Source: an uncultured Ignavibacteriota bacterium
Lineage (GTDB): Bacteria > Bacteroidota > Ignavibacteria > UBA10030 > UBA8401
Direction: 5' to 3'
NCBI GenBank assembly: GCA_903958625.1
Contig: CAJBTU010000093.1
Coordinates: 1-36,331, forward strand
DNA length: 36,331 nt
The notes under the pieces are model-generated. The model searched no databases and was not told the DNA's origin. It was given only the letters and a program-made list of their open reading frames with translations. The position numbers were made by a program, and so were the translations under genes. Position 1 is the first letter of the stretch. Each line of letters starts with the position of its first letter. This document shows positions 1-27,524 of this stretch, piece after piece.

Positions 1-66
1 CAGGAAATCACTATTTTTGTTCATGATCTGAATGAAATACAAAAGCAGTTGAAAACCCATGAATAA
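1..66 (+). CDS. C-terminal end of a PAS-like sensor protein (partial)
   Basis: Frame 1 is open from the first base to a TAA at 64-66 and gives 21 residues ending IQKQLKTHE. The segment ITIFVHDLNEIQKQL resembles the last strand and exit helix of a PAS domain (compare the usual 'xxFxDITEIKxLE' ending). It does not resemble the end of a histidine-kinase ATPase domain. The last 8 bases overlap the start of the NtrC-type regulator, so the two are probably translationally coupled. If the protein really ends in PAS, it is a sensor without a C-terminal kinase core. Only the tail is visible, so the family call is weak, but the reading frame is clear. Confidence 0.5.
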   Translation, partial: QEITIFVHDLNEIQKQLKTHE

Positions 67-1420
67 CCTACTTGTTTTAATCGTTGACGATGAAGCATCA
101 CAGCGTGAAGTATTATCCGGCTATTTAAAAAAGAAAAAACATTCCGTCCATCAGGCATCATCGGTCCAGGAAGCCATTGTAAAGGTCCGTTCCCAGCACT
201 TTGATCTTGTCCTGACCGATTATAAGATGCCCGGCAAAACTGGATTTGATCTTTTGCAGGAGATCAAAAAGATCGATACGGAAGCGGTTGTTGTATTAAT
301 GACTGCATTTGGAACGATCGAGGGGGCCGTGGAGGCGATGCGGGCCGGTGCGTATGATTATCTGGGCAAACCGATCGAGCTTGATGAAATCGACCTGCTC
401 ATTCAGCGGTTACAGGAACGACGGCAGCTGATCTCTGAGAACAGATCGCTGCGTCAGCAACTTGTTGAAAAATTTGCGTTCACAGAAATAGTCTCTCAAT
501 CGGCACAGATGCAGGAAGTGCTGTCCACGGCATCGCGCGTAGCTCAAACCAATGCTCCCGTTCTTATCCGCGGTGAAAGCGGTACTGGTAAGGAATTGAT
601 CGCACGCGCCATTCATTTTAACAGTGCGCGCAGCGGTAAACCGTTCATTGCCGTAAATTGCGCCGCTCTCAACGACAATCTTCTGGAAAGCGAATTGTTC
701 GGTCACGAGAAGGGGGCATTTACCGGTGCGGAGAAACAACGCCGCGGAAGATTCGAACTTGCCGATGGCGGAACGATATTTCTGGATGAGATCGGCGACA
801 TATCGCCGGCGACACAGGTGCGGCTGCTGCGTGTGCTGCAGGAGCAGCAATTTGAACGAGTCGGAGGATCTGAGACGATTTCTGTTGATGTCCGCGTCGT
901 TGCTGCGACGAATAAAAATCTTGAAACTGCGATTGCAGAAGGAAAATTTCGGGAAGATCTCTTCTACCGGCTGAATGTTGTTTCGGTTGAAATCCCCGGA
1001 CTCCGGTACCGGCGGGAAGACATTTCCCTTTTACTGGATCATTTTCTTTTACGCTTTGCAAAAGAACACAAGCGGAAAAAACTTACGTATTCCAAAGAGG
1101 CATGGGAGCAGCTCATCCGGTATGACTTTCCGGGAAATGTGCGTGAATTAGAGAATATCGTTCAGCGATCTGTAATCTTTTCCAGAGGAGAGATGATCAC
1201 CACGGATGATCTTCCGGTAGTCGTTCGCGGAGCGTCTCAAGAGAACAGACAAAAAAAAGAGGATACGGGTTCATTTCCGGAACAGATAGAGAAACTGGAA
1301 AAGGATCTTATCTTTGAAGCACTCCGCGTCAATGGAAACAACCAATCGAAAGCCGCAGAACTGCTCGGATTATCAGAACGCAATTTGCGGTACCGCTTGA
1401 AAAAATGGGGAGTTAAGTAA
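59..1420 (+). CDS. NtrC-family sigma-54-dependent response regulator
   Basis: This cytoplasmic transcription activator uses ATP hydrolysis to open sigma-54 RNA polymerase promoters. The receiver domain (about residues 5-115) has acidic D10/D11, phospho-acceptor D54 in LTDYKMP, T82 and K104. The AAA+ domain (about 143-385) has Walker A GESGTGKE (172-179), an intact sigma-54-contacting GAFTGA loop (219-224) and Walker B FLDE (241-244). The C-terminus has a Fis-type helix-turn-helix (about 425-451, NNQSKAAELLGLSERNLRYR). At 453 aa it has the normal family length and all key residues. Its start overlaps the preceding gene by 8 bp and has no clear Shine-Dalgarno. A sigma-54 promoter with paired palindromes lies just downstream, so that operon is its likely target. 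The histidine kinase at 4419-6440 is a candidate partner; the pairing is inference. Confidence 0.95.
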   Translation: MNNLLVLIVDDEASQREVLSGYLKKKKHSVHQASSVQEAIVKVRSQHFDLVLTDYKMPGKTGFDLLQEIKKIDTEAVVVLMTAFGTIEGAVEAMRAGAYDYLGKPIELDEIDLLIQRLQERRQLISENRSLRQQLVEKFAFTEIVSQSAQMQEVLSTASRVAQTNAPVLIRGESGTGKELIARAIHFNSARSGKPFIAVNCAALNDNLLESELFGHEKGAFTGAEKQRRGRFELADGGTIFLDEIGDISPATQVRLLRVLQEQQFERVGGSETISVDVRVVAATNKNLETAIAEGKFREDLFYRLNVVSVEIPGLRYRREDISLLLDHFLLRFAKEHKRKKLTYSKEAWEQLIRYDFPGNVRELENIVQRSVIFSRGEMITTDDLPVVVRGASQENRQKKEDTGSFPEQIEKLEKDLIFEALRVNGNNQSKAAELLGLSERNLRYRLKKWGVK

Positions 1421-1717: not shown

Positions 1718-2077
1718 ATGAAACACATCATCAACACAGCACTTACGCTCGCAGTCGTTCTCGCACTCGGCGTTATGTTCACCAATTCAGTCTATGCACA
1801 GCAAAAAGGGACCGGCACACCTAAAGGTCAGGGTCAATATTTTGTGGATCAGGATGGCGATGGGATCTGTGATAATGTCGGCACGCACCAGGGACAAAAG
1901 ATGGGAAAAGGAAAAGGGTATGGACCGAAAGACGGTACAGGCAATAAGGGTCAGGGACCGAAAGACGGAACAGGCTTTGGATCAGGCAATTGCACCGGAA
2001 CAGGCACTGGCACAGGTACAGGGGTTTGTGACGGAACAGGTCCAAAAGGAAGTATGAATCGCGGCGGTAAGAGGTAA
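1718..2077 (+). CDS. Small exported Gly-rich protein with calcium-loop-like DxDGDGICD motif
   Basis: This is a 119-aa exported protein. It has a signal peptide of about 27 residues ending VYA-QQ. A loop FVDQDGDGICD follows (D44, D46, D48, D52), resembling an EF-hand or thrombospondin-3 calcium loop with a cysteine. A Gly/Thr/Lys-rich tail carries an 11-residue repeat (GPKDGTG twice) and a GTGTGTGTG run, and Cys occurs at 51, 92 and 104. It is first in the sigma-54-driven unit and has the strongest Shine-Dalgarno of that unit (CAGGAGG, 5 bases before ATG). The protein at 2890-3210 shares the loop and basic Gly-rich style, so the two look like distant paralogues. Metal binding is plausible from the loop. 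No biochemical role is known to me. Confidence 0.85.
   Translation: MKHIINTALTLAVVLALGVMFTNSVYAQQKGTGTPKGQGQYFVDQDGDGICDNVGTHQGQKMGKGKGYGPKDGTGNKGQGPKDGTGFGSGNCTGTGTGTGTGVCDGTGPKGSMNRGGKR
1922..1975 (+). repeat. Two 21-bp direct repeats, 33-bp period
   Basis: GGACCGAAAGACGG begins at 1922 and again at 1955. The 21-base units 1922-1942 and 1955-1975 differ at one base. They encode the GPKDGTG units of the small Gly-rich protein with an 11-codon period, so the frame is preserved. This looks like a recent in-frame tandem duplication that could vary in copy number between strains. Confidence 0.8.
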
Positions 2078-2088
2078 TAGTGTTCCCA

Positions 2089-2118
2089 GCGTGCGGAGAG
2101 TGTGAATTCTCCGCACGC
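2089..2118 (+). other. Perfect 10-bp stem-loop between first and second genes of the operon
   Basis: GCGTGCGGAG (2089-2098) and CTCCGCACGC (2109-2118) are perfect inverted repeats around a 10-base loop, and one more A-T pair is possible at the loop base. The hairpin lies 11 bases after the stop codon of the small Gly-rich gene and 44 bases before the DUF2202 gene. No T-run follows, so it is not a classical intrinsic terminator. An mRNA-stabilising or partial-attenuation element is more likely. It separates a gene with a strong ribosome site from one with none visible, which suggests unequal expression within the operon. Confidence 0.7.
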
Positions 2119-2162
2119 ACAAATCAACGATGCACGTTTAACCATTAATTGAAAGTATAAAA

Positions 2163-2873
2163 ATGAAAACCATATCCTTCACGTTACTACTGACAACAAC
2201 AATGATGATCAGCGCAATCGGCTGCGAACAATCAAGTTCGGGTCCATCGAATAATGAGATGTCCGCACAGAACATTACCATCCCGGAAGAAAACTTTGCA
2301 ATGATGCATGCAGTTGTTGATACGATCGCCGCTGATTCACTTTCGGTTGAAGAGGAACAAGGTTTGACCGTTATGCGCGAGGAGGAAAAATTAGCGCGTG
2401 ATGTATATTCCGCACTGTATGAAGTGTGGAAATTACGGCCATTTTCAAATATTACACGAAGTGAGCAAATCCATACGACATCGGTCCTGACATTATTGAA
2501 CCGGTATTCTGTAACGGATCCCGTGGGAGCAAATGGTCCCGGAGTATTCATCGACCCGGTATTGCAGAAACTCTATAATGATCTGATGGTTCAGGGGAAC
2601 ATCAGTGCGATTGATGCGTTGACGGTCGGTGCGATCATTGAAGAAGTTGATATCGCAGACCTGCAGCACCACATAAAGGCAAGCGACAATGCGGACATCC
2701 TCTATGTGTATGCCAATCTTATGCGCGGCTCGAGGAATCATCTCCGTGCATTTGTCGGGAATCTTCGGGTTCGGGGAATCACCTACGCACCGCAGTATTT
2801 AACAAAAACAGAATTCGATGAGATCATTGCCGGCAGCATGGAACGCGGATGCGGAACAAACGGATCAAACTAA
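2163..2873 (+). CDS. DUF2202 ferritin-like lipoprotein
   Basis: This 236-aa protein has a lipoprotein signal: a hydrophobic start, lipobox SAIG-C with C21 as the lipidated residue, then a Ser-rich linker. It should be anchored in the envelope. Residues from about 60 to 230 match the DUF2202 family, a predicted ferritin-like helical bundle. Candidate metal ligands are seen as EEEKLARDVY (73-82), SEQIH (E101, H104), IEEVD (E160, E161) and RNH (H193). No clear Shine-Dalgarno precedes the ATG, unlike the first gene of the unit. The neighbours are two small proteins with calcium-loop-like motifs and a barrel protein. The family's biochemical role is not established; metal or redox handling in the periplasm is inference. 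Confidence 0.88.
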   Translation: MKTISFTLLLTTTMMISAIGCEQSSSGPSNNEMSAQNITIPEENFAMMHAVVDTIAADSLSVEEEQGLTVMREEEKLARDVYSALYEVWKLRPFSNITRSEQIHTTSVLTLLNRYSVTDPVGANGPGVFIDPVLQKLYNDLMVQGNISAIDALTVGAIIEEVDIADLQHHIKASDNADILYVYANLMRGSRNHLRAFVGNLRVRGITYAPQYLTKTEFDEIIAGSMERGCGTNGSN

Positions 2874-2889
2874 TTTTAGGAAAGACAGA

Positions 2890-3210
2890 ATGAAAAAAAT
2901 GATCTATACTGCCAGTCTTGCATTCGCTATCTCGCTATTGGCTGCTCAAACACCGCAACCCGCAGAGAAGAAAATCGATCAGGAGAAAAAAGGGATCTCC
3001 ATTGTCAAGGATCTTGATGCGAACGGCATCGACGACGCAAAGGAGAAGAATCAGGGTAAGGGAAAACAAGGGATGAGATCGAATGATCAATTCATCGATG
3101 CGAATGGCGACGGGATCTGTGACAGCCGTGAACAGGGGCTTGGATTTCGCCGCGGTAAAGGACAATCAACAACTCAAACAGGAAAACGACAACAAGGAAG
3201 ACAAAAATGA
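2890..3210 (+). CDS. Small exported protein with two calcium-loop-like motifs
   Basis: The ATG at 2890 is preferred over an upstream start at 2818, which would overlap the DUF2202 gene. It begins a clear signal peptide (MKKMIYTASLAFAISLLAAQ) and follows AGGAAAG. The 106-aa product has two acidic loops: DLDANGIDD (41-49) and DANGDGICD (70-78). A basic, Gln/Lys/Gly-rich tail follows. The second loop is nearly the same as that of the 119-aa protein at 1718, which points to a shared ancestor or shared ligand. It lies 16 bp after the DUF2202 gene, and its stop overlaps the next gene's start by 4 bp. No family name is recognised. Confidence 0.8.
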   Translation: MKKMIYTASLAFAISLLAAQTPQPAEKKIDQEKKGISIVKDLDANGIDDAKEKNQGKGKQGMRSNDQFIDANGDGICDSREQGLGFRRGKGQSTTQTGKRQQGRQK

Positions 3211-4325
3211 AAACAATATCCGGTATTATATTCATCACACTTACAATAGCAACTCAAAGTGTATTCGGTCAGTTCAATGCACAAACAACGATCAGTTCCA
3301 TGTATGATGACAACGTGAATAACAATACGCTTCAATTGAAAAGCAATGTTACCACCATGAACCTGAACGGCGGATACAGCTGGGAGGGGGAACGCTTTCT
3401 TTCAAATATGAACTACGACGGGACATTCAGCTATTATGAATCTCTTCTCGAGCGGACCAATCAATTCCATTCCGTCAATGGTGAGTTTACGCAGTTGTAT
3501 GGAAGTGACGATCAAAACGCATTCACTCTTGGCGGAATGGCCGGTGCCAGCGTGAACAGGGATGCCTATGTGATCTTCGATCATTCGCAATATTCGGCAT
3601 TCGTCAACTATAAATATTTTGTGACCGATTGGATGATCAATAAAGGGGGATACACAATGCGCAGAATATCATTCTCCTCGTTGGGCGATTTCAGTTACAC
3701 GGAACATGCCCTGTTCGCCCATGCCGCATTTGCCGTTACACCGGCAACAACGGCAATAATCCAGACGGATCTCGGAACCAAATTCTATTCAACAACGCCG
3801 GCAAGTGCCAATTCCTCGATGCGGAGAGGGGTCATGTCGTCTTTGCTGCCGAGCGTTACGCAGCTGACCGGCACGGTGAAAATTGGTCAGCGCATTAGCG
3901 ATGACATAGGGCTCAGTATCACCGGACGGTACCAATGGAACATCCAAAAACAGACGCGGTATCTAAGTTCTGAATATGGATTCATTTCTGACGACGAACT
4001 GTTTGATGATCACTATGGATATGAAGGGCTGCATACGAGTGCGACCATCACATCGATCCTTTCAGAATCAATGACGATGAAAGTGTCCGGCGGAATACAG
4101 AATAAGGTCTATTCATCCTTATCCGCCTATGATCTGAGCGGTAACTTTGTCGCCGATCAGCGGACCGATGCGCGCACCTATGTCAATATCGGCCTTCAGA
4201 GAAACTTTGATGATCTTGGAATATCGCTGAAAGGGGCCATTGATTTCATCCAAAATTCGTCGAACGATTCATTTTACAGCTACAAAAATAACGCATTCAC
4301 TTTGGAACTGGGTGTCCCTTTTTAA
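3207..4325 (+). CDS. Predicted outer-membrane beta-barrel protein
   Basis: This 372-aa protein has a signal peptide of about 21 residues ending VFG-Q. After that it is dominated by alternating hydrophobic/polar strands rich in Tyr, Ser, Asn and Gly, and it ends in the aromatic residue of LELGVPF. These are the usual marks of an outer-membrane barrel. The start overlaps the preceding stop by 4 bp (ATGA), so it is coupled to the upstream small protein. No conserved family could be named. By position it is the outer-membrane component of the sigma-54-controlled envelope unit, either a channel or a surface anchor; the sequence does not decide which. Confidence 0.8.
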   Translation: MKTISGIIFITLTIATQSVFGQFNAQTTISSMYDDNVNNNTLQLKSNVTTMNLNGGYSWEGERFLSNMNYDGTFSYYESLLERTNQFHSVNGEFTQLYGSDDQNAFTLGGMAGASVNRDAYVIFDHSQYSAFVNYKYFVTDWMINKGGYTMRRISFSSLGDFSYTEHALFAHAAFAVTPATTAIIQTDLGTKFYSTTPASANSSMRRGVMSSLLPSVTQLTGTVKIGQRISDDIGLSITGRYQWNIQKQTRYLSSEYGFISDDELFDDHYGYEGLHTSATITSILSESMTMKVSGGIQNKVYSSLSAYDLSGNFVADQRTDARTYVNIGLQRNFDDLGISLKGAIDFIQNSSNDSFYSYKNNAFTLELGVPF

Positions 4326-4418: not shown

Positions 4419-6440
4419 TTGATTCGTTTTATTACCATCATTAAGCCCCGGTATATCATTGCAATAACGCTTGGTGTTGCACTTCTGATGTTCACCTCTG
4501 CGTTCATTGAGCTGCGTCAAAGCCGCGAAGAACTCTTCCACGTATTGCAGGAACACTCTCTTTCGCTTGCCGAAACGATCACCAACAGCAGCACGAATAT
4601 TGTTCTTTCAACGGACCGCATCGAAGATCAATTGAGCCGGCGATTGCTGAACAATGCACATTTTATCGCCACACTGGACAGTATCGGCGTTCTGAACAAA
4701 AAAATGCTGAGGGAGATCGCCATTCGTAATGATATTTACCGGATCAATATCTTCAACCGGCGCGGCGAGCGGATCCTTTCGAGTCACACGCATGAAAAAC
4801 ACGCAGGACAGATGCGGGAGAAGAATTCACCGGCAATCGTGCTGAAGCCAATCCTCAGCGGAAAAGCAGATGAGATTGTTATTGGAATAAAGGAAGCCAG
4901 GTTCGAAGAAGGGCAGCGGTATGCCGTAGCCGTGAAACGTACCGGTAAAGCCGGCGGCGCCATCGTTCTTAATCTTGATGCGGCAACATTCATCGAATTC
5001 CGAAAACAGATCGGCATCGGCAAATTAGTTTCAGACCTCGGTAACAATACCGGGATCGAATATGTTGTTATCCAGGACAGGGACGGAATACTTGCCGCCA
5101 CCAAAGATGTGAAAGAGATGACGACGGTCGAGAACGACCCCTCTCTTCTCGCTGTGTTGGAACGCGATACAACGGTCAGCCGTGAGATGCTTTTTCATCA
5201 ACGGGCAACATTCGAAATATTAAAGCGGTTTTCCATCGATGGTGCGGCTGTCGGGGTGCTCCGTATCGGACTTTCATTGGACGAACTGCGTGCGATCGAC
5301 GAGCGGATGCAGCGCAGAATGCTGACGATGACAGTCGTGTTCATCTTTCTCGGAGTGATCATTGTCTCATTTATTGTTGCATCGCAGAATATCAAATTGA
5401 TCTCCGGCAAATACGCATCCATCCAGACGCTCACCGGTAATATCCTTGAACATATGAATGATGCAGTCGTGTCGATCGATCATTCCGGAAAGATCACGAT
5501 ATTCAACCGGCAGGCCGAAACACTATTCGGCCTCGGTGCCGCAGAGGTCATCGGGCATTCTATCGATCAGCTTCCCGGGAAGGTCAGGGAGTGTTTACAT
5601 TCAATGACGGAACAGAAGGAAGAACAAACGGAGCGGACGCTGCTCTGTGCAAAGGACGAAGAACGGATCGTTTCGATCTCGACCTCAACGACAACGGATC
5701 CGCACGGCGGTATGGAATCGCGGACGATGGTGATCAAAGATCTCACTGATGCGAAACGGTTAGAGAAGGAAGTGCAGCGGAAAGAGAAAATGACGGCAAT
5801 GGGAGAATTGGCGGCCGGGGTAGCCCATGAGATCAGAAATCCGCTCAACGCAATATCGATGATCGCTCAGCGGTATGAAAAAGAGTTTTCCCCGAAAAAA
5901 GGTGTGCGGGAATACAAAGGGCTTACCGCCGTATTGAAAAGCGAATCGATCCGCATCAATGGGATCGTTCAGCAATTTTTGAAATATGCACGCCCCAAAA
6001 CGATCAAAGTGGAGAGCGTATCGTCGCAGGCATTCATCGGTCATGTTGCGACACTGTTTCAGGCTCAGGCAAGTGCAAAGAAGATCCATTTTACATTCGA
6101 GTCCGATGACGCCGCATTTTCCATTGATCACGATCAGATGACGCAAGCGATTTTGAATCTTTTGCAGAACGCACTGGATGCAACGCCGAAACAGGGATCG
6201 ATCACATTGACATTGAAAGCGGGGAATAAGGAAGTTATTATAGAAGTCGCCGATACGGGTTCGGGCGTACCGGCGGAACTGCAGGAAAAGATCTTCAATC
6301 TCTACTTCACAACAAAAACCACAGGGACGGGGATGGGTCTTGCGATAACACAGCAAATAATATCGCAGCATAATGGATCGCTCTTTATCAGTGCTAACCG
6401 GCCGACCGGTTCCATATTCACCATTATATTGCCGGTATAG
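4419..6440 (+). CDS. Membrane-bound PAS sensor histidine kinase (NtrB/ZraS-like)
   Basis: This 673-aa protein contains one transmembrane helix (about 11-30), a periplasmic sensor region (about 31-298, Cache-like in size), a second helix (about 301-321) and a PAS domain (about 335-447). A HisKA domain follows, with H470 in GVAHEIRNPLN, then an HATPase domain with N584, DTGSG (612-616) and TGTGMG (635-640). The start is TTG at 4419, chosen because the next in-frame ATG would cut into the first helix. The HEIRNPL motif class is the type that partners NtrC-family regulators. The gene follows the sigma-54 unit and could sense the envelope state that the NtrC-type protein at 59-1420 responds to. 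That pairing is inferred from proximity. Confidence 0.92.
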   Translation: MIRFITIIKPRYIIAITLGVALLMFTSAFIELRQSREELFHVLQEHSLSLAETITNSSTNIVLSTDRIEDQLSRRLLNNAHFIATLDSIGVLNKKMLREIAIRNDIYRINIFNRRGERILSSHTHEKHAGQMREKNSPAIVLKPILSGKADEIVIGIKEARFEEGQRYAVAVKRTGKAGGAIVLNLDAATFIEFRKQIGIGKLVSDLGNNTGIEYVVIQDRDGILAATKDVKEMTTVENDPSLLAVLERDTTVSREMLFHQRATFEILKRFSIDGAAVGVLRIGLSLDELRAIDERMQRRMLTMTVVFIFLGVIIVSFIVASQNIKLISGKYASIQTLTGNILEHMNDAVVSIDHSGKITIFNRQAETLFGLGAAEVIGHSIDQLPGKVRECLHSMTEQKEEQTERTLLCAKDEERIVSISTSTTTDPHGGMESRTMVIKDLTDAKRLEKEVQRKEKMTAMGELAAGVAHEIRNPLNAISMIAQRYEKEFSPKKGVREYKGLTAVLKSESIRINGIVQQFLKYARPKTIKVESVSSQAFIGHVATLFQAQASAKKIHFTFESDDAAFSIDHDQMTQAILNLLQNALDATPKQGSITLTLKAGNKEVIIEVADTGSGVPAELQEKIFNLYFTTKTTGTGMGLAITQQIISQHNGSLFISANRPTGSIFTIILPV

Positions 6441-6493: not shown

Positions 6494-7126
6494 TTATACA
6501 TATCCCTTTTTAATCGCCTTTGCCACCGCTTCCGCTTGAGAGTGGACGTGCAGTTTTTTGTAGATCTTTTTGATGTGAAAACGGACGGTATCTTTGCTGA
6601 TATTCAACGTCATAGCGATGGAATAATAGGTCTTCCCTTTGATCAATTCCTTCAGTATTTCCAATTCGCGATCGGTGAGGAGCGTAGCATTTTCCGCAAG
6701 CGTTTTCTTATTTTGAAAAAAGAGGGTCACCTTGCGGGCGATATGGGAACTCATCGGAGCTCCCCCTTCGTACGCCTCCTGGATCGCTTCCAGCAGCCGT
6801 TCGGGGTGAGTTTTTTTCACAAGATAACCGCACGCACCGGCACACAGTGCGTCGAAGATCAGGTCGTTCTCTTCGTGGATGGTCAGCATCAGAATATTCA
6901 AGTCGGGCAATATTCCTTTTACGATCTTCACGCCGTCGATTCCGTTCATTCCCGGCAATTTGATGTCCATCAGAAGAATATCCGGTTTCAGATCCTTCAC
7001 TTTCTTCAGCATGCTTTCGCAATCAAGGAAAGAACCGGCGCAGGAGAATCCTTCCGCTCTGTTGATCAGTAATGAGAGGGATTCGTTGATTATTTTGTTG
7101 TCTTCTACGATAACGACTTTGATCAT
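6494..7126 (-). CDS. NarL/FixJ-type response regulator
   Basis: This 210-aa regulator has an N-terminal receiver with acidic E8/D9, phospho-acceptor D54 in LLMDIKLPG and K104. A LuxR-type helix-turn-helix occupies about 148-205 (LTDRELEILKELIKGK...ISKDTVRFHIKKIYKKL). It is complete. It starts 19 bp after the stop of the Reg_prop sensor kinase on the same strand, so the two form a two-gene operon and almost certainly a phosphorelay pair. Its DNA targets cannot be read from the sequence; the adjacent glycan cluster is one possibility. Confidence 0.93.
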   Translation of the reverse strand: MIKVVIVEDNKIINESLSLLINRAEGFSCAGSFLDCESMLKKVKDLKPDILLMDIKLPGMNGIDGVKIVKGILPDLNILMLTIHEENDLIFDALCAGACGYLVKKTHPERLLEAIQEAYEGGAPMSSHIARKVTLFFQNKKTLAENATLLTDRELEILKELIKGKTYYSIAMTLNISKDTVRFHIKKIYKKLHVHSQAEAVAKAIKKGYV

Positions 7127-7145
7127 TGTGCGGATACTGCTTTCC

Positions 7146-10100
7146 TTATATCTTTCCAGAAAATTTTATCATCGATCCATTACCGGCGCTTGATTGTATG
7201 CGCAGCGAGCCGCCGACGGCAGCAGCGCGGTTCCGCATGTTCTCCAATCCGTTCCCGTTGCTTCGCTCATTGGCATCAAAACCTTTTCCATTATCGTACA
7301 TTGTAATGGTGAGGTATTTGCCGTCGATCTCCGTATTGATGGAGATTTCCGAACAGCCGCTGTGCTTTATGGAATTGTTGATCGCTTCTTTGAAAATAAG
7401 ATACACATTCTTCCTGTATTCCATCGGCAAAAAGAATTTTTCCATGAAGTTGAGATTGTTGATATGGAGAAGGATCTTTTTATAGGAAAGTATCTCTTCG
7501 TATCCATCCTTCAGTTTCAGGAACAATTCATACAGCGAATCCCGTTTTGGGTTGATCAGCCAGACGATATCGCTCATATTTTCGATGAGTGCACGCGCGA
7601 TGCCGCCGATGTTCCTGACGGAATCCTTAAAAGTTTTGGGATCATCCGTTTCGCCGTGATAGACCATGTCGCTGAGAAGGGAAATTTCGGTCAGCCGCGT
7701 ACCGATATCGTCGTGAAGATCGGATGCAATCTTCAAACGCAAGCGCTCGATCGCCAGCAGATGCCGGATCTGGAAATAGACAATCGAAACGATGATGGAG
7801 AGGATAACGATCATCAGAAAGGAGATGAACCACCAAGTCCGCCAGAAGGGGGGAGAGATGATGATGTCGATGGTCGCGCCGTTCCGGTTCCAGACACCAT
7901 CGTTGTTCGACCCGATGACCTTAAAGACATATCTTCCCGGATCGAGATTGGTATAAGTGACAAAACGCCGCGTTCCCGAAGAGATCCAATTTTTATCGAA
8001 TCCCTCCATTTTATAAGCATACGTGTTTGATTGGGGCGAAGAAAAATGCAAGGCTGCAAACTCGATGGAAAATACATTCTGACTATGCGCCAGCGTTATG
8101 GAACGTGTAGCGGTGATGGAGTGTGAAAGCGGAGAATTGCCCCCCACACCGACGGATTGATTGAAGATCTGAAAATCCGTGAGCACGATCGGAGGAATAT
8201 GGGGGTTATCTCTGATACTGTCCGGATAGAACATATTGAAGCCATTGATACCGCCGAAATACATATATCCGCGGGAATCCTTGAAATGATCGTTTCCGCC
8301 GAACTGATTGCTCTGCAATCCGTCGCTGGCTGAATAGTTTCTGATCTTTCCGGTTCCCGGTTGGAAGCAGGAAAGTCCTTTATTCGAACTCAACCAGAGA
8401 TTTCCCTTACCGTCCTCAAGGATGCCATAGATGACATTGTTCACCAGACCACTGTTCTCATCATAATGCGTGAAACTGTTTTTCGTTCTGTCGAATTTAT
8501 TCAATCCGTTATTCGTGCCGATCCACATGGACCCGTTCCTGTCTTCGTGAATGCACCAGACGTTATTGTTGCTGAGACTTGTTGTATCGGAGGGATCTTC
8601 AAGAAAATGTGTAAATGTTCCGGTCACCCGGTCGAATTTATTCAGGCCGCCGCCAAGGGTTCCGATCCACAGCGTTTTGTCCTTTGTCTCATACGTTGTA
8701 TAGACGTAATCATGACTCAAGCTTTTAGGATCGTTTTGTTCCTTCACATAGAATTTTACTTTTCCTGTGGACGGATCGAATTGGTTCAAACCGGCAAGGG
8801 TGGCAAGCCAAAGCGAGCCGTCGTCATCCTCGTGGATGTTAATAATATCATTGCTGCTGATCCCTGTGGTGATGTTGCCGTTCCGCATATTGTGGAAAAT
8901 ATTTTTCGACCGGATAAACTTGTTTAAACCGCCGCCGTTCGTTCCGATCCATAAAGTTCCCTGTCGGTCTTCATTGATCGACCGGATATAATTATTACTG
9001 ATGCTGAAAAGATTCCGCGGATCGTGCTTGTAATGAATGAACCGATCATTTTTTTCATCGAACCTATTCAAGCCGGAGCGCGTGCCGATCCACAGCACGC
9101 CCGAATGGTCGCGGTATATTGCCGTGATCTCATTATTGCTGAGGCTGAACGGATCGTGCGGTTCGCTTTTATAATGTAAAAATTTTGCCGCGTTCGGATC
9201 CAGCTTATTCAATCCGACATCCGTTCCGAGCCAGATGATGCCGGTACGGTCTTCATAGATGGACCAGACGAAATTGTGGCTTATGCTGTACGGGTCAGCA
9301 GCATCGTGGACGTAATTAATGAATGAATAGTCTGTTCCGTTGGTTACCTGCACAATTTTATTCAAACCACCGTCGAGCGTGCCGGCATAGACGGTTCCAC
9401 TGTGGTCTTTAAGAAGTGTCCACACATTATTCCCGCTGATGCTCTGTCTGTTCTGCGGATCATGAAGAAAACGGAGCGACGTATGCTTCTTCTTGTCGAA
9501 AAGATTCAATCCGTTATTGGTGCCGATCCAAAGATGACTGCTATCGCCATCGATGATCGACCAGATATAATTATTGCTGAGGCTTTTTTTATCGGCAGGA
9601 TCATTCGTGTAGACGGAAAAAAATCCCTTTCCTGTTTCGAATCGGTTCAATCCATTGTATGTACCGATCCAGAGAATTCCCGGTTCATACGTTGATTCAA
9701 AGATCGACCAAATAACGTTATTGCTTATGCTGTTACCGGATGAATCTGAGTGAGTATATCGAATAAAACTGTCATTACGGGAATCATATCTGTTCAGTCC
9801 ATTGTTGGTACCGATCCAAAGTTGACCGGCAGCATCCTGAAATATCGAGCGGACATTATCGTTGCTGATGCTTTTTTCATCCTTCGGATCATTACGGTAC
9901 CGGGTGAACTGTTCCGTACTTTCATCGAATTTGTTCAACCCGCCGCCGAGCGTGCCGATCCATAAAAAACCCTGTTTGTCTTCAAAGATTCTGACGATGG
10001 TATTGTTGCTCAGTGTGTTTGGATTTCGCGGATCGGATTTGAAGACTGTAAAAGTATATCCGTCATACTTATTCAGTCCATCCAGCGTGCCGAACCAGAG

Positions 10101-10271
10101 GAATCCTTTGCTGTCCTGCATCATGGAGAACACAGAACTTTGGGAAAGTCCCTGTTCAATGGAGATGCGGTCAAATTTTACTTTTTTGGTCTGACCAAAC
10201 GTTAACGAAATAACCAAGAGGATCAGCATTCCGGCGGATATTATTCTGCAGAGATTCGGAAATATTTTCAT
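7146..10271 (-). CDS. Reg_prop / Y_Y_Y sensor histidine kinase (HisKA_3 type)
   Basis: This 1041-aa sensor begins with a signal peptide ending TFG-Q. Fourteen repeats of the 'LWIGTxxGLNxFD' kind follow to about residue 700, enough for two seven-bladed periplasmic propellers. A Y_Y_Y immunoglobulin-like domain (about 735-805) and one transmembrane helix (about 813-834) come next. The kinase core is of the HisKA_3 class, with H853 in DLHDDIG, N965 in EAINN and DNGKGFD from D993. In Bacteroidetes, sensors of this build often sit in hybrid proteins that detect released oligosaccharides. Here the regulator is a separate LuxR-type protein encoded just downstream. The ligand is unknown; a glycan is inference. 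Confidence 0.94.
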   Translation of the reverse strand: MKIFPNLCRIISAGMLILLVISLTFGQTKKVKFDRISIEQGLSQSSVFSMMQDSKGFLWFGTLDGLNKYDGYTFTVFKSDPRNPNTLSNNTIVRIFEDKQGFLWIGTLGGGLNKFDESTEQFTRYRNDPKDEKSISNDNVRSIFQDAAGQLWIGTNNGLNRYDSRNDSFIRYTHSDSSGNSISNNVIWSIFESTYEPGILWIGTYNGLNRFETGKGFFSVYTNDPADKKSLSNNYIWSIIDGDSSHLWIGTNNGLNLFDKKKHTSLRFLHDPQNRQSISGNNVWTLLKDHSGTVYAGTLDGGLNKIVQVTNGTDYSFINYVHDAADPYSISHNFVWSIYEDRTGIIWLGTDVGLNKLDPNAAKFLHYKSEPHDPFSLSNNEITAIYRDHSGVLWIGTRSGLNRFDEKNDRFIHYKHDPRNLFSISNNYIRSINEDRQGTLWIGTNGGGLNKFIRSKNIFHNMRNGNITTGISSNDIINIHEDDDGSLWLATLAGLNQFDPSTGKVKFYVKEQNDPKSLSHDYVYTTYETKDKTLWIGTLGGGLNKFDRVTGTFTHFLEDPSDTTSLSNNNVWCIHEDRNGSMWIGTNNGLNKFDRTKNSFTHYDENSGLVNNVIYGILEDGKGNLWLSSNKGLSCFQPGTGKIRNYSASDGLQSNQFGGNDHFKDSRGYMYFGGINGFNMFYPDSIRDNPHIPPIVLTDFQIFNQSVGVGGNSPLSHSITATRSITLAHSQNVFSIEFAALHFSSPQSNTYAYKMEGFDKNWISSGTRRFVTYTNLDPGRYVFKVIGSNNDGVWNRNGATIDIIISPPFWRTWWFISFLMIVILSIIVSIVYFQIRHLLAIERLRLKIASDLHDDIGTRLTEISLLSDMVYHGETDDPKTFKDSVRNIGGIARALIENMSDIVWLINPKRDSLYELFLKLKDGYEEILSYKKILLHINNLNFMEKFFLPMEYRKNVYLIFKEAINNSIKHSGCSEISINTEIDGKYLTITMYDNGKGFDANERSNGNGLENMRNRAAAVGGSLRIQSSAGNGSMIKFSGKI

Positions 10272-10509: not shown

Positions 10510-11028
10510 ATGAAAAAATCAGTTGTAATGATCGGTGATTCGATAACTGCCGGTTTTGATACGAAGCGATATTTCCTGGAGGATATCATCATTAATTATG
10601 GTGTTTCCGGAGACAGCACTGTTGAGTGTCTTGAAAGAATCAACAAAGAATGGTTCAACACTCAGCCGGAGGCCATATTTCTGTGCATCGGAACCAACGA
10701 TCTGGCCAGAGAGCGAACGGACGATTTCATTCTTGCGAACATTCAGAATATTGTCGGATCGATCCGCCATTTTGCAGGAGGATCAACAATCTATATCACT
10801 TCGATCTTCCCGACGAGAGAAAATGAACCGCGGCCCAACGAACGCATCAATAAATTGAACAATAAAATTGAGCAACAGTCGGTTGAACTTGGCTGCACAT
10901 TCTTCAATCTTCATGAACATTTTACCGATGCTCTGGGAATGTTAAGAAAAGAATTTACCGACGACGGACTGCACCTTACTGACGAGGGGTATTCACAGTG
11001 GAGCAACGTTCTTACGAAATTGATGTAA
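10510..11028 (+). CDS. SGNH/GDSL-family hydrolase
   Basis: This 172-aa hydrolase carries the family's blocks: GDSIT with nucleophile S11, a Gly in block II (YGVSGDS, about 31-36), block III GTND (61-64, oxyanion Asn N63), and block V DDGLHLTxxGY with D152 and H155 completing the catalytic triad. There is no signal peptide, so it is probably cytoplasmic. Members are esterases, lipases or carbohydrate deacetylases, and the sequence does not choose between them. A good ribosome site (GAGGAG) precedes the ATG. The 238-bp divergent region before it (10272-10509) must hold promoters for this gene and the sensor kinase, but no clear element was identified. The gene converges with the glycan operon 62 bp further on. 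Confidence 0.9.
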   Translation: MKKSVVMIGDSITAGFDTKRYFLEDIIINYGVSGDSTVECLERINKEWFNTQPEAIFLCIGTNDLARERTDDFILANIQNIVGSIRHFAGGSTIYITSIFPTRENEPRPNERINKLNNKIEQQSVELGCTFFNLHEHFTDALGMLRKEFTDDGLHLTDEGYSQWSNVLTKLM

Positions 11029-11090
11029 AAAAATGCATTGTCCATCGTCCCGCTGCTGCTTGACTCATCTCCTGTAAAAACCAAGATCCA

Positions 11091-12740
11091 TTATTTGATG
11101 AAGAGCATACTTTTTGTTTTGCTCTGCTCTGAAGTTTGTATCCGGTAGAAATACACCCCCGCTGAAAGATCCAACGCATTAAAACGAATGTGATACTCTC
11201 CCGGAGTCTGGCGTTCATTCAGCAGATGCTTTATTTCGGATCCCAGGGCATTGAAGATCGTTATGGAGACGTTCGTTTCTTTCGACAACGAATAACGTAT
11301 GACCGTTGAAGGATTGAACGGGTTTGGGAAATTCTGGAACAATTCGAACGAGAGATCTGATTTTCCTGATGCACGGCGGTTTACCGACGTCACCACTTTT
11401 GGATCGAACGATTCGAATTTGACCGCGTCGGCAACAACATACGAATTTGTCTTTGCCGCATCGGAGACCGTTATTCTGTCTGCCGATGTACCGCTGAACT
11501 CATATGTTCCGATCCGTTTCCACGACGACCCGTTCACTGTCTGGTCAACACGAACGGTATCAGTCCCGCCATTACGGGTAATGATGAAGGGGGTATCTGT
11601 GCTTCTGTTCGAACTGGAAACCCACCAGCCGTAAAGATCATAAACAGCTTTTGCGGGAAGATGCGCTCTGAATTCAAATGACGTGCTTCCGGTGCCGATG
11701 CCGTGCAGCATCGATTTTGTTGTTCCCCAGTATCCGGGATTGGCGCTTTCGAACCAGCCTCCGCCGATCGCCGTGGCGCTTGTATCACCGGTATCGATGA
11801 TCTTTTGAAAGAGCGGATCTTTGGGAAGGTTCAGCGAATCGGTGCTGACGATTGCAAAGATCGACGGCACCGCCCGTTGTTCGGAAGGGGAATTGATATA
11901 CTGATTCTGTACTGCCATCTGTGTTGAACCGCCGCCGTCAAGGTTGATCGCGCCGACACAACCCAATCCTTTCATGATCTCCGCAAGTTCCGTTAATCCC
12001 ACTCCGGCGCTTCCTGTCTGTCGTCCGTCAGCCGTCATTACAATCACATGTTTGTCCGCAGTAAAACCAACAGCAGTCCTTGGATCGCCGTTCGTCTCGC
12101 CGACGCCGGAGCCCCACATCAGTTCCTGATTGTATGTGACGTTAATGGTATTATCTTTGATCAGCATCGGACCGCCGCCGATCCCGACGAGCAGATCGGA
12201 ATAGACCGTTCCAGCACTTTTGAGCGGGGCTGACCGCGGCGAAGGATCGTTGCTGATATACGGCAGCGGCTGAGCATACGTATAGATATCAGTCATCGCA
12301 TTTCCGAACTGATAGATCCAATCGACACTCAGCGATCTATCTTTTTTCATCCCGAAGAAACTGCGGACGACGGGGTAGGATAAGGAGTTTCTCGTTACGG
12401 ATTGCACGTTTGAGGCTTTTACCTCGTTCGGATAGATCACCGCTGAATACGGCACTCCGCCGCCGAAGTATCCGCCGTTGACGGCTGCATACGCGCCAAC
12501 CGATGCAGTGAACGAGGGAAGTGTCATGCTTGTGCCGGAAACATACGGCCGTACCGCAAGTTTGGAATTATTGAGATCGGCATCCAGATACCAAATGCTG
12601 AGAATGGGAGATGTTCTGCTGCCGTGGAAAACTTTTATCCCCTGCGGAAGTGTGTAGTTCGCCGTAATATCCTGCCAGGTGACCGTTTGCGGAAATACGA
12701 ATTGGGAAGATAAAAAGAGTAACACGAGAAATTTTTTCAT
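11091..12740 (-). CDS. Secreted phosphodiester glycosidase (NAGPA domain) with golvesin-like and T9SS sorting domains
   Basis: The start at 12740 is preferred because it gives a signal peptide (MKKFLVLLFLSSQFVFPQ) and follows the previous stop by 7 bp; a longer form from 12791 would overlap it. The 549-aa product has three parts. First is a NAGPA/DUF2233 phosphodiester-glycosidase domain (about 80-300) with AVNGGYF, RTAVGFTADKHVIVMTADGR and NLDGGGSTQM. Next is a golvesin-like beta-sandwich (about 312-450, WWVSSSNRSTDTPF, VDQTVNGSSWKRIGTY, VVADAVKF). Last is a T9SS type-A sorting domain (about 465-549, NFPNPFNPST). NAGPA-family enzymes cleave sugar-1-phosphodiester bonds. It is the only clearly secreted product of the ten-gene run and the last gene in it, so it may release substrate outside the cell. 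Confidence 0.88.
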   Translation of the reverse strand: MKKFLVLLFLSSQFVFPQTVTWQDITANYTLPQGIKVFHGSRTSPILSIWYLDADLNNSKLAVRPYVSGTSMTLPSFTASVGAYAAVNGGYFGGGVPYSAVIYPNEVKASNVQSVTRNSLSYPVVRSFFGMKKDRSLSVDWIYQFGNAMTDIYTYAQPLPYISNDPSPRSAPLKSAGTVYSDLLVGIGGGPMLIKDNTINVTYNQELMWGSGVGETNGDPRTAVGFTADKHVIVMTADGRQTGSAGVGLTELAEIMKGLGCVGAINLDGGGSTQMAVQNQYINSPSEQRAVPSIFAIVSTDSLNLPKDPLFQKIIDTGDTSATAIGGGWFESANPGYWGTTKSMLHGIGTGSTSFEFRAHLPAKAVYDLYGWWVSSSNRSTDTPFIITRNGGTDTVRVDQTVNGSSWKRIGTYEFSGTSADRITVSDAAKTNSYVVADAVKFESFDPKVVTSVNRRASGKSDLSFELFQNFPNPFNPSTVIRYSLSKETNVSITIFNALGSEIKHLLNERQTPGEYHIRFNALDLSAGVYFYRIQTSEQSKTKSMLFIK

Positions 12741-12747
12741 AGAAATA

Positions 12748-15159
12748 TTATTTATGTCCGAGAATAATTTCAACAGTAATATTTGTCTCATTCACCAACG
12801 AGACATCAATAAACGCCGATTGAACTTCTTTACCATTAACCTTAATAGATTTGATCGCGGAATTCACGCCGTCGGGATTTGTAACGGTCAGCAGGAAACG
12901 CTTGCCTCTGAATGACCGTTCGGCCTTAAAGGATTTCCAGTGCGACGGAATATTCGGTGCGAATGTGATCCCGCGAAGACTGGTTCTGAAACCAATGATA
13001 TAGTCCAATGCAATGCGGTACATCCAAACTGCTGTTCCGGTCAGCCATGAGTGACTTGCCTGATTCTCTGTTTCGTGGTCTGGACTGGTAAGATATTCCG
13101 CAAAGACGTACGGTTCGGTCTCATAGCGGTCGATATTTGCGGACGAATTGAACGGAAGCATTTTCGTATAAATATCATAAGCGGATTCGACATCGCCGTT
13201 GATGATCGATGCGAGGATGAACCAGGACGATGCGTGATTGAACACTGCGCCGTTCTCTTTTTTCCCGGGAACGCAGCGGCTGATCAATCCGATGGTATCC
13301 TCAACTTCGGTGTATGAAGGCCAGACGATCTGAATACCGTACGGAGTGCCGAGATGCTTTTTCGTTGATGCGAGCGCCTTGTCGGCCCGTTCCTTCGGTG
13401 CAAGTCCGGAAATGACAGACCATGTCTGAGCGTTGATGAAGATCTTTCCCTGTTTGTATTTATGGGAACCAACCGATTCACCATTGTCGCGGAACGCGCG
13501 CAAATACCATTCACCGTCCCAGCAGACATCGTTGATCACTTTTTCCAGTTTAGTATAGAACTGTTCCCACCGCTGACGGGTCGCGGTATCTTTGCGAAGA
13601 TCGAGCAATTCGAAAGTCTTTTTCAGCATGTAGCCGAGAAAAAAACCTCCCCAAACCGTTTCCCCTTTTCCAAGCGGACCGATATGATCCAGCGTGTCGT
13701 TCCAATCGCCGTTCATAATCTTTGGAAGTCCGCGTTCTGTTGTTGCCGAGATTGCAAAATCCAAAGCTTTCACCAGATGTTCGTACGCTGTGCCCGAACC
13801 CTCGTCGTAAAATGTGACGACTTCATCCAGAATGGAATAATCGGCAGTTTCGTTGAGATATTCGATCAGGCCGAACGGGATCCACAACGGCGTATCGGAG
13901 TGATTGGTTTTTTCTCCGCTGTCGGTCATCTTAAAGAAATTGTGCAGTGTTGAACCATTCTTGAATTGAAACCGCAATGCGTTCAGCAACCGTGCCCGTA
14001 CACGTTCGGGGTTTGCAATTACCATTCCGAGAATATCCTGGAACTGATCGCGCATTCCTGTGCCGAATAACAGTCCGCCGTGATAATAGCCGGAATTCCG
14101 CGCCATATCGAATGTGACAGCGCATTGATACTGATTCCAGACGTTCATCATTGCATTCATTTTTTCGTCCGGCGTCTCCACAATAACATGTCCAAGATAC
14201 GTATCCCACTTTTGTTTCACCTGTTGTAATTTTTTATGGATCGTATCGATCTTTTTCAATTCATTCCATTTCACGAACTCGAATGGTTTTTCTTCACTTT
14301 TTGGGACGATCGCCAGAATGGCGGCAAAATCAACGGATGCATTTGCTTTCAATTCGATCTTCGACTGAAGAGCGGCGACAGGATCGCCAGCCGTGATCTC
14401 GGTGTTGCCCATTGCACCTGTTTCAATAGCGACAGGATTTGATTCCGATCTCCACCGGCCGATGAATGTATCCAGACTGCCGTCAAATCCTGTAACAGGC
14501 AGCGTACTGGTGAAATAGAGTTTATATTTCCAATCGATGTTCGGTTGCACGACAGAGACTTTTTTATTCAGCACCCAATACCGGCGCGTTGAAACCAGTG
14601 TCTCATGTTCTTTATCAAAATGGATATCGGTGAAATGCTTGTCGTTCGGCTGATTGATGATGTCGTTCAACGCATTTCCCATCATCAATTCGGTAAACGA
14701 ATAGACCTCTAATGATCGTTGAGCGCCGGTAAGATCTGTCAGACGCACGCTCCATATTTCCGCGTTCACATCCGTCGGAACAAAGTAAGTGATCTCACCG
14801 CGGATTCCGTTGATCTCGGTGGTGATCTTCGTGTATCCCTGACCATGCCGGCATTCGTACTTGTCATATTTGAGATCGATCGTCGGCGCCCAGCTTAATG
14901 ACCAGTATTTTCCCGACACGGTGTCTTTTACCATAACGTAGCGCCCCGGACGATCCCACGGCAGACAATTATAACGCATGCGTGTAATACGGTTGTCGCG
15001 CGGGCAGTCAAGAAAGCTGAATCCGCCGCCGGTGTGCGAGATCAATCCGCCGTAATGTTCATTCCACATATAATTGAACCATGGACGGGGAGTGCGGGGA
15101 TCGGTGATGACATATTCTCTGTTATTTTCGGTCAGGTGACCGTATTTATTATTGATCAT
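12748..15159 (-). CDS. GH94-family glycoside phosphorylase (cellobiose/chitobiose phosphorylase-like)
   Basis: This 803-aa protein has the GH94 layout. The N-terminal beta-sandwich begins NNREYVITDPRTPRPWFNY and contains SHTGGGFSFL. A helical barrel follows with GTGMRDQFQDILG (about 366-378) and MNGDWNDTLDHIG (482-494). D488 in GDWND matches the family's general-acid Asp. Enzymes of this family split beta-linked disaccharides with phosphate to give an alpha-sugar-1-phosphate and a free sugar. The substrate (cellobiose, chitobiose or other) cannot be fixed here. NanE and a phosphohexomutase in the same run suggest that sugar phosphates are processed further. No signal peptide is present, so it is cytoplasmic. 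It starts 16 bp after the GH38-like gene. Confidence 0.9.
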   Translation of the reverse strand: MINNKYGHLTENNREYVITDPRTPRPWFNYMWNEHYGGLISHTGGGFSFLDCPRDNRITRMRYNCLPWDRPGRYVMVKDTVSGKYWSLSWAPTIDLKYDKYECRHGQGYTKITTEINGIRGEITYFVPTDVNAEIWSVRLTDLTGAQRSLEVYSFTELMMGNALNDIINQPNDKHFTDIHFDKEHETLVSTRRYWVLNKKVSVVQPNIDWKYKLYFTSTLPVTGFDGSLDTFIGRWRSESNPVAIETGAMGNTEITAGDPVAALQSKIELKANASVDFAAILAIVPKSEEKPFEFVKWNELKKIDTIHKKLQQVKQKWDTYLGHVIVETPDEKMNAMMNVWNQYQCAVTFDMARNSGYYHGGLLFGTGMRDQFQDILGMVIANPERVRARLLNALRFQFKNGSTLHNFFKMTDSGEKTNHSDTPLWIPFGLIEYLNETADYSILDEVVTFYDEGSGTAYEHLVKALDFAISATTERGLPKIMNGDWNDTLDHIGPLGKGETVWGGFFLGYMLKKTFELLDLRKDTATRQRWEQFYTKLEKVINDVCWDGEWYLRAFRDNGESVGSHKYKQGKIFINAQTWSVISGLAPKERADKALASTKKHLGTPYGIQIVWPSYTEVEDTIGLISRCVPGKKENGAVFNHASSWFILASIINGDVESAYDIYTKMLPFNSSANIDRYETEPYVFAEYLTSPDHETENQASHSWLTGTAVWMYRIALDYIIGFRTSLRGITFAPNIPSHWKSFKAERSFRGKRFLLTVTNPDGVNSAIKSIKVNGKEVQSAFIDVSLVNETNITVEIILGHK

Positions 15160-15175
15160 TGGACTGTCTGGAAAA

Positions 15176-17962: not shown

Positions 17963-17985
17963 AGTTCTTACTATATCCGGAGAAG

Positions 17986-19356
17986 TTACGATTTGAAAAA
18001 AAGATTGTATGTAAGGACGATCTCGGGAACGCCTCCTGTGCAAACGACTGCAGCCGCATCAAAATTATGTCCCGTCGTTTGAGCAAAAGGAACGGCAACG
18101 CACCGGCCGATACCGGCGGCGCGGATGGCAATCGTTCCGCTTTCGCTGTCCTCGAAGCCGATCACGTTCTTAAAGTCCGAAGCGGGAACATTCAATTGAT
18201 GAAGGGCAATGCAGTAAAGATCACGGTGCGGTTTCAGGCGGATCTCGGTAGAGTCGCTTGCCGTAATAAACGCGTCATAGACATTCCTGTAACCGGACAG
18301 TTTTTGCCGTATCAGTTCTTTTCGTGCGGAAGAGATCGTGAGATCGTCCAGTTGCGATGTTAAAACATTGAAGACCTCACCCATGACGATATCCGCCTCA
18401 TAAAAGATCGACGATGTGACGATGGCAATTTTCGCCGGATGTTTCTCGAAGTAAAGGCTTAATGCTTTCACTCTCTTTTTTATTTCGGCCGGATCGGTGA
18501 CATCAAATATCTTTCCGGATTTAACGCGGTATTCTTCAATGAGTCTGTCGGTTAGATTATCCGCTTCGTTTCCGAGCCATCCTTTCAAAAGACAGAGAAG
18601 AAATAATACACCCGGCATCGGCTGGATCAATCGTTTGTTTGGATCGTTGAAGAGTTCGATGGAAATATTCTTGCTTTCACCCCGTTTGATGCGCTGCAAT
18701 ATTTCGTGATACCTTTGGTAGTAAATATCGATAGCAATCTTAACAAGGTCTGTTTTGGACAACGAAGGGAATCTATCGGAAAAGCGCTGCAGAAAATATT
18801 CCGATATTTCATGTTCCATACCTGCAAGGGAAGTATTCTTAGCCGAGAGATCCTTATAAAAACCATCACCGAAGATGCCGGAAAGATTGAAATTATTGAG
18901 ATTGACGGTGACTTCTTCTTTCCGTTTGCTGTCGTTGCCGGCAAGTAGAGTCCATAGTGCCGCGTAGAAATACGATCCTTTAATATTCTCATCAATAAAG
19001 AGAGAATGATACTTGGTGATCAGATATTCCACATGTTTCGTAGTACTGTTGCCGATGATATGCGGGTAATCAAGATTGTGATCAAGGCCCTTCCATGACT
19101 CTGTTGTCATCTTCCCGGACATCTTTCTTATCATAAACTCGAGGGAATGGATGCAGAGTTCTTCCGTTGTCGTCGTTGTACCGTCCATATCCATTACCGC
19201 TGCCGCGAGAGACTCCAGCGGGGAGGTCAATTTCGGCGCGAGGGGATAGAGTTCGAATTCGGGATGAATGTATTCCGGATTTTTTACGACGGCAAATTCG
19301 TCGGAGAGATTCTTTAAGAGTTCAGCGGCGTTATGTTTATCGATTATCTTCTTCAT
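17986..19356 (-). CDS. HAD-superfamily hydrolase (beta-phosphoglucomutase-like)
   Basis: This 456-aa protein carries HAD motif I DMDGT (D56, D58), motif II IVTSS, motif III Lys in KPHRDLY, and motif IV GFEDSESG. The late part resembles beta-phosphoglucomutase-type phosphatases. A long insert (about 60-290) forms an unusually large helical cap, and 50 residues precede motif I; most relatives are about 220 aa. It may be a sugar-phosphate phosphatase or mutase. It starts 9 bp after the phosphohexomutase gene and precedes the GH38-like gene by 23 bp. The substrate is unknown. Confidence 0.85.
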   Translation of the reverse strand: MKKIIDKHNAAELLKNLSDEFAVVKNPEYIHPEFELYPLAPKLTSPLESLAAAVMDMDGTTTTTEELCIHSLEFMIRKMSGKMTTESWKGLDHNLDYPHIIGNSTTKHVEYLITKYHSLFIDENIKGSYFYAALWTLLAGNDSKRKEEVTVNLNNFNLSGIFGDGFYKDLSAKNTSLAGMEHEISEYFLQRFSDRFPSLSKTDLVKIAIDIYYQRYHEILQRIKRGESKNISIELFNDPNKRLIQPMPGVLFLLCLLKGWLGNEADNLTDRLIEEYRVKSGKIFDVTDPAEIKKRVKALSLYFEKHPAKIAIVTSSIFYEADIVMGEVFNVLTSQLDDLTISSARKELIRQKLSGYRNVYDAFITASDSTEIRLKPHRDLYCIALHQLNVPASDFKNVIGFEDSESGTIAIRAAGIGRCVAVPFAQTTGHNFDAAAVVCTGGVPEIVLTYNLFFKS

Positions 19357-19365
19357 TGTCCCTGT

Positions 19366-20775: not shown

Positions 20776-20787
20776 TAACGATAAAAT

Positions 20788-22098: not shown

Positions 22099-22104
22099 GC
22101 GGTA

Positions 22105-22788: not shown

Positions 22789-22844
22789 AGTTGTTTTCGC
22801 CGTTATACGATATTTACAGTGTTTCCAAAAAGTATCAAGATTTT

Positions 22845-22872
22845 GTCATGCCGAGCGGAGTCGAGGCAGGAC
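22845..22872. repeat. REP/MITE-like palindromic repeat between nanE and the short FAD gene
   Basis: GTCATGCC (22845-22852) and GGCAGGAC (22865-22872) form a stem with 7 of 8 pairs around GAGCGGAGTCGA. From memory, dispersed repeats of the form 'GTCAT...GAGCGgAGtCGA...' are scattered through intergenic regions of many Bacteroidota-like genomes. Only one copy is seen in this window. It lies inside the only long gap (184 bp) of the ten-gene run. No promoter or gene was seen in the rest of the gap. Confidence 0.5.
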
Positions 22873-22972
22873 TCTTTTGAATTATCACACTTCTTCTTCC
22901 GCCAAAAATATTGCGGATTTGCGGTCGTTCCGTGTAACAATTTCACTAAAAATGTTTTTGAAATCGCTTCTA

Positions 22973-23806: not shown

Positions 23807-23820
23807 TACGCTGCGGTCTC

Positions 23821-25977: not shown

Positions 25978-25992
25978 TCTTTTCCGGTGAAA

Positions 25993-27468: not shown

Positions 27469-27524
27469 TCAGTCATACCTTACAAATAGTAGGTTCAAAA
27501 TAAACAATTAGGGGTATAAAGAAA

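Follow-up and report, generated by a model that had tools for sequence, protein, structure and literature searches.

What brings two small exported proteins, a ferritin-like lipoprotein and an outer-membrane barrel together between an NtrC-type regulator and a sensor kinase, and what controls them? This arrangement opens the window, by which we mean the whole stretch of DNA analysed, the 36,331-nucleotide contig CAJBTU010000093.1 (GenBank assembly GCA_903958625.1), part of a 3.99-Mb draft genome of an uncultured Ignavibacteriota bacterium. Reading frames and Pfam matches define six genes there, all on the plus strand and all with good ribosome binding sites, encoding in order a response regulator, the small protein SP1, a DUF2202 lipoprotein, the small protein SP2, the barrel and a histidine kinase. 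The original prediction, made from the letters of the sequence, had described SP1 to barrel as a four-gene envelope module under sigma-54 control, serving a sensed periplasmic response, perhaps to metal or redox stress. Our analysis leads us to conclude, with a probability of about 0.72, that the locus is a small cell-envelope regulon under two-component and sigma-54 control, through which reinforcement of the outer surface or export would be induced. The regulatory half of this model is well supported by comparative genomics; for the effector half, we hypothesize surface reinforcement or export by way of divalent-ion loops.

The evidence that carries this conclusion lies upstream of SP1, where the control region was compared across 98 genomes of the window's order and a phylum sample of 395 genomes. 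A -24/-12 promoter, TGGCAC-N5-TTGT (TGGCACGGCGGTTGT), is found at 1635-1649 on the plus strand, 68 nt before SP1, with a 9/10 match. The bare sigma-54 pattern with two mismatches is uninformative, giving 20 matches in the window against 28.6 expected, and the window site is credible because its position is kept across relatives and a double palindrome lies upstream of it. Consistent with the predicted sigma-54 control, such a site precedes SP1 in 31/31 scored loci of the order, 21-85 nt upstream, with a score of 8/10 or better in 30 of them and 9/10 or better in 23. Sites of at least 9/10 are nearly absent before the regulator (0/23), kinase (1/27) and barrel (1/31) genes. The double palindrome, which did not figure in the earlier account, is a tandem enhancer at 1538-1575 (unstranded), TCGACGTTATTGTCGG-N6-TCGACAAAATTGTCGA, consisting of two TCGACN6GTCGA palindromes 22 bp apart with a 19/20 match. 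Exactly this 22-bp spacing is kept in 30/31 loci, and both palindromes score at least 8/10 in 28 loci, compared with 1/3,100 regions in shuffled controls. Further, the promoter lies at distances from the second palindrome that cluster mostly near 60, 72, 80, 93 and 108, in steps of about one helical turn. Allowing up to three mismatches, the tandem site occurs in a single copy in the window's genome, and order-wide the matches with up to two mismatches lie nearly all before SP1 or DUF2202. This exact DNA signature predicts further regulon members in any genome of the group. Sigma-54 has been linked generally to the bacterial exterior (PMC3162934).

The DUF2202 gene (2163-2873, plus strand) extends this evidence to other places in the genome. 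Its product is, as first read, a ferritin-like lipoprotein: it matches the helix-bundle family PF09968 with 187.7 bits against a curated cut-off of 22 (E = 1.6e-55), and the family alignment has an invariant Gly-Cys after the signal peptide, the Cys being that of the lipobox. DUF2202 is found inside the operon solely in the window's genus; elsewhere in the order it is divergent from SP1 in three loci and separate in three. In 6/6 of the order's DUF2202 genes outside the SP1 transcript, the start is preceded by the palindromes (16-20/20) and, at 46-85 nt, by a sigma-54 site (9-10/10). In the phylum sample, the palindrome (at least 8/10) precedes DUF2202 in 8/8 SP1-bearing and 0/11 SP1-free genomes, and a sigma-54-like site (7-9/10) lies about 64 or 86 nt beyond it. 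The co-occurrence of DUF2202 with the loop proteins, which had been suggested as a check, was also borne out at genome level (SP1 and DUF2202 together in 9 genomes versus 2.4 expected, p 1.8e-4). The genomes share ancestry, which leaves these counts partly dependent, but DUF2202 stands in different places, each with its own site, and common descent of one locus is insufficient to account for that. By these comparisons DUF2202 is an optional passenger in the operon, yet a predicted regulon member wherever it is located. As an obligate partner it was rejected, being present in 10/98 genomes of the order versus 31/98 for SP1, and sigma-54 control of DUF2202 in general was also rejected, as no site was found at Chromatiaceae, Chloroflexi and other homologues outside the phylum. 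At three Chromatiaceae loci (L013, L017 and L026), DUF2202 lies near a different NtrC-type regulator and kinase and two unknown exported proteins, with no SP1, SP2, barrel or clear sigma-54 site.

A third kind of predicted target was observed in one relative (L198, G004:C47; enhancer at 8031), where the tandem site and a 9/10 sigma-54 site precede an operon that encodes, as judged from Pfam matches of homologues, a TonB-dependent receptor, an ABC ATPase, an FtsX/MacB permease, a LolA-like protein and a second outer-membrane protein. The same set of TonB receptor, ABC, permease, LolA-like and outer-membrane protein genes follows the enhancer-bearing DUF2202 in G053 (L050), and the ABC, permease, LolA-like and outer-membrane protein genes separate barrel from kinase in G094 and G091. 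This suggests that the theme of the regulon is the traffic of outer-membrane lipoproteins or lipids. A LolCDE-like ABC operon as a core part was rejected; the window's genome has no close copy.

The linkage of the other genes is conserved, and the module recurs across the order and beyond, so the absence of conserved linkage that was to refute the original prediction was not observed. SP1 is present in 31/98 genomes of the order, co-located with the barrel (about 31 strong matches), and the core of regulator, SP1, SP2, barrel and kinase recurs in gene maps of about 30 loci, the kinase sometimes standing beside the regulator instead. In the phylum sample, SP1 was found in 35/395 genomes, mostly again with regulator, kinase and barrel. 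These include other families of the class and a family recognised as green sulfur bacteria by the FMO protein in 7/7 tested genomes (it is not in the window's genome). As some green sulfur bacteria are culturable, the signal and function of the module are testable. Of the proposed four-gene unit, SP1, SP2 and the barrel belong to the conserved core, and within the operon DUF2202 is an insertion restricted to the window's genus. In loci L119, L121, L123, L125 and L133, an extra exported protein of ~146 amino acids (KVNHPYATLKDESGREYEIHLGPYWYW; no Pfam match) is encoded between SP1 and SP2, and some of these five modules have DUF4382 or DUF4405 genes as neighbours.

The NtrC-type regulator and PAS kinase noted on either side both belong to the module. 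The regulator (59-1420, plus strand), the presumed activator, is a REC-AAA+-Fis helix-turn-helix protein (Pfam Response_reg, Sigma54_activat and HTH_8) with the phospho-acceptor motif LTDYKMPG at residue 52 and GAFTGA at residue 219, and its orthologs adjoining the module in relatives are 57-83% identical. This is the architecture of an NtrC-type activator, a receiver with an AAA+ sigma-54 interaction domain and HTH_8, and the paired upstream sites with a -24/-12 promoter at the target, known from comparative genomics only, agree with it. The kinase (4419-6440, plus strand) has a Pfam architecture of sensor, PAS, HisKA and HATPase, with hydrophobic segments near residues 12-32 and 300-320. Its structural model (pLDDT 79) places two PAS-like periplasmic subdomains between two transmembrane helices, the arrangement of a double Cache sensor, and Foldseek matched the sensor to DctB, rpHK1S and PctA (E about 1e-7) with low TM-scores that indicate the fold class only. 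Small-molecule binding is usual for the double Cache fold, and the modelled domain suggests that the kinase senses a periplasmic ligand or state. A kinase ortholog adjoins the barrel or regulator gene in most loci. In the window, no terminator-like site lies between the barrel and kinase genes; the kinase gene may therefore share the transcript.

The two small proteins flank the lipoprotein and share the GDGICD loop, as the original prediction had noted, and a search of the 3.99-Mb genome for codons spelling D-x-[DN]-G-D-G-[IV]-C-D returned just two sites, 1847 in SP1 and 3097 in SP2, so that the shared loop is not a chance match. SP1 (1718-2077, plus strand; 119 amino acids) is an exported, Gly-rich protein whose signal peptide, DQDGDGICD loop and C-terminal CDGTGPKG tag were read directly. 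SP2 (2890-3210, plus strand; 106 amino acids), read directly and from alignment, is also exported and carries a degenerate loop DLDANGIDD, the loop DANGDGICDSRE and the tail GLGFRRGK; its start is most likely the ATG at 2890, with AGGAAAG upstream, rather than the first ATG of the open reading frame at 2818, which lies inside DUF2202. Relatives of both proteins have one to four DxDGDGxxD-type loops each; those of SP1 mostly end in CDGTGPKG and basic residues, and those of SP2 in the order have a GLGFRRGK-type tail. The loops resemble those of EF-hand and thrombospondin type 3 proteins in their DxDGDGIxD pattern, repeated in many relatives, and DANGDGICDSRE carries acidic residues at positions 1, 5, 9 and 12, like an EF-hand; they differ in that one or two short loops are found here in Gly-rich proteins of ~100-130 amino acids. 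Neither SP1 nor SP2 has a Pfam (including EF-hand) or NCBIfam match, and the search of SP1 against solved structures returned Gly-rich linkers only.

Together, these results suggest the following course of events. The kinase would sense a periplasmic ligand or state through its double Cache domain, as its fold implies, and would phosphorylate the regulator encoded in the same module. The regulator would then bind the two TCGACN6GTCGA palindromes, two helical turns apart, and drive sigma-54 RNA polymerase at TGGCAC-N5-TTGY. From gene order and spacing, one transcript would cover SP1, DUF2202, SP2 and the barrel and probably extend into the kinase gene; genomes other than the window's have this switch before a free-standing DUF2202 gene as well and before the TonB-receptor/ABC/FtsX/LolA-like/outer-membrane protein operon. 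We hypothesize that SP1 and SP2, once exported, work together with the barrel at the outer membrane, their DxNGDG loops binding Ca2+ or a related ion, and that DUF2202 is a metal-dependent lipoprotein, probably for redox or metal protection.

Several observations weigh against this account. Calcium binding by SP1 and SP2 is a hypothesis drawn from the motif, of which "calcium-loop" is a fair reading; the SP1 loop has no acidic residue at position 12 of the classical EF-hand, and the Pfam EF-hand model scores 10.9-12.2 in relatives versus a cut-off of 25.9. Kinase and regulator are paired on the basis of gene adjacency, and some module loci of the order have no recognised regulator or kinase on the contig examined. 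The outer face of the barrel, on which we rely below, was assigned by loop lengths and assumes periplasmic termini, as is usual.

A first alternative, which we consider rather unlikely, is that the module serves metal or oxidative stress defence, with DUF2202 as a di-metal enzyme or store and SP1 and SP2 as metal binders. The conserved Glu and His residues of the DUF2202 family and its solved homologue MJ0754 (3q4n, 3q4o, 3q4q, 3q4r), which is of the same family over 178 residues (E = 1e-54), favour it, as do the Cys residues in the small-protein loops; however, about two-thirds of the order's modules have no DUF2202, and the loop Cys is lost in many relatives. Compared with MJ0754, the window protein is a predicted lipoprotein within a sigma-54 regulon. 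Redox enzymes are encoded upstream of the regulator in three relatives: loci L042, L043 and L044 have pyridine-nucleotide-disulphide oxidoreductase and rhodanese genes there, and in L042 and L043 DsbH/thioredoxin genes also precede the regulator. The window contig ends before the corresponding stretch. Such neighbours occur in near relatives only and are only suggestive of a redox role. Of the sensed periplasmic response first envisaged, the sensing agrees with the modelled double Cache domain, and metal or redox stress is a conceivable stimulus.

A second alternative, unlikely in our view, makes the barrel a dedicated exporter, distantly Slam/type 11-like, that brings SP1, SP2 and perhaps DUF2202 to the cell surface, their loops then folding around Ca2+. 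The barrel (3207-4325, plus strand; 372 amino acids) starts on the SP2 stop in an ATGA overlap, also present in several relatives, which upholds the coupling claimed earlier and, with SP1 adjoining as well, fits an exporter and its cargo; CDGTGPKG and GLGFRRGK, the tags conserved at the C-termini, could serve in recognition. The C-terminal strands match SlipAM (PF04575, DUF560) in 21/30 family members, above the cut-off in L119, L123, L125 and L212 (22.5-31.0), but the window barrel scores 18.2 versus a cut-off of 22. Slam is defined by an N-terminal TPR domain and 14 predicted strands (PMC5449769). The AlphaFold2 model of the window barrel (pLDDT 89.6) instead passes straight from the signal peptide into 16 long strands, with neither a TPR domain nor a 14-stranded barrel, and no TbpB-like or eight-stranded cargo barrel is present. 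A 2017 survey, which placed Slams in Proteobacteria, reported no proteins with DUF560 alone (PMC5449769). In structure searches, TpsB exporters and trimeric porins were the best matches (Z 18-23, too close to choose), with the TpsB exporters CdiB and FhaC on top (Z 21-23) and ordinary porins almost equal (Z 19-20), so that the model is that of a generic 16-strand fold without a functional pointer. The fullest version, in which a 16-stranded barrel related to SlipAM but lacking a TPR domain would carry both calcium-loop proteins outward to fold there, with DUF2202 as optional cargo, all within an undescribed surface regulon spanning the phylum, we regard as less likely still; if true, it would be a new kind of small outer-membrane export or surface-coat system under dedicated two-component control.

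A third alternative, that the barrel works as an ordinary porin, induced to take up a nutrient which the Cache kinase senses, with SP1 and SP2 structural or accessory and DUF2202 incidental, appears quite unlikely. The 16-stranded porin-like model would suit it, amino acids, carboxylates and other nutrients are frequent ligands of double Cache sensors, and AtoS/AtoC are the best kinase and regulator models, though below cut-off. However, the core module of the 31 loci has no recurrent catabolic or inner-membrane uptake genes, and the switch accompanies DUF2202 at independent sites. Further, outer loops are normally the least conserved part of barrels; here, outer loops 6, 8 and 1 have conservation values of 0.71, 0.71 and 0.63 compared with 0.54 for the strands, which is unusual for porins. 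The conserved loops 1, 6 and 8 are acidic, with DDN, DDELFDDH and SND, and it is reasonable, in the model, to infer an outward-facing site for a metal or a partner. A chance neighbourhood of unrelated genes beside a chance sigma-54-like site, for which the abundance of bare sigma-54 matches in the window might speak, is practically negligible and was rejected on the 22-bp spacing, the shuffled controls, the enhancer and the synteny kept over many genera.

The control logic of the envelope regulon favoured here is known from ZraPSR (HydHG) of enterobacteria and other NtrC-type systems. Like ZraPSR, it has an NtrC-type regulator, a membrane kinase, a very small regulon and a sigma-54 promoter before a small exported protein; the targets of ZraR are zraP, zraSR and possibly mgtA only (PMC7657598). 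The ZraR and ZraS equivalog models score strongly but below cut-off (440 versus 760 and 211 versus 479). In contrast to ZraPSR, the effectors are unrelated to the ZraP chaperone and include a barrel and DUF2202, the kinase has a double Cache domain with PAS, and the enhancer is the 22-bp tandem TCGACN6GTCGA. As far as the searched literature shows, effectors and enhancer are undescribed, as the original prediction had held for the module: we found no paper combining sigma-54, Chlorobi, regulon and enhancer, none on the module for Chlorobaculum tepidum and none naming DUF2202 or MJ0754. DUF2202 is present in archaea and many bacteria with no role described in that literature, and the regulon provides a single regulatory home for SP1, SP2, the barrel and DUF2202, four families without a described function.

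Beyond the module, the minus strand of the window at 6494-10271 encodes a Reg_prop/Y_Y_Y propeller histidine kinase and a LuxR-type response regulator, convergent to the module kinase. A sugar-related locus follows at 10510-28000, with a GDSL lipase, an NAGPA phosphodiester glycosidase carrying Golvesin_C and Por_Secre_tail, large glycosidase-like genes, a phosphosugar mutase-like gene and a permease, and a SusC-like receptor lies beside it at 29261.

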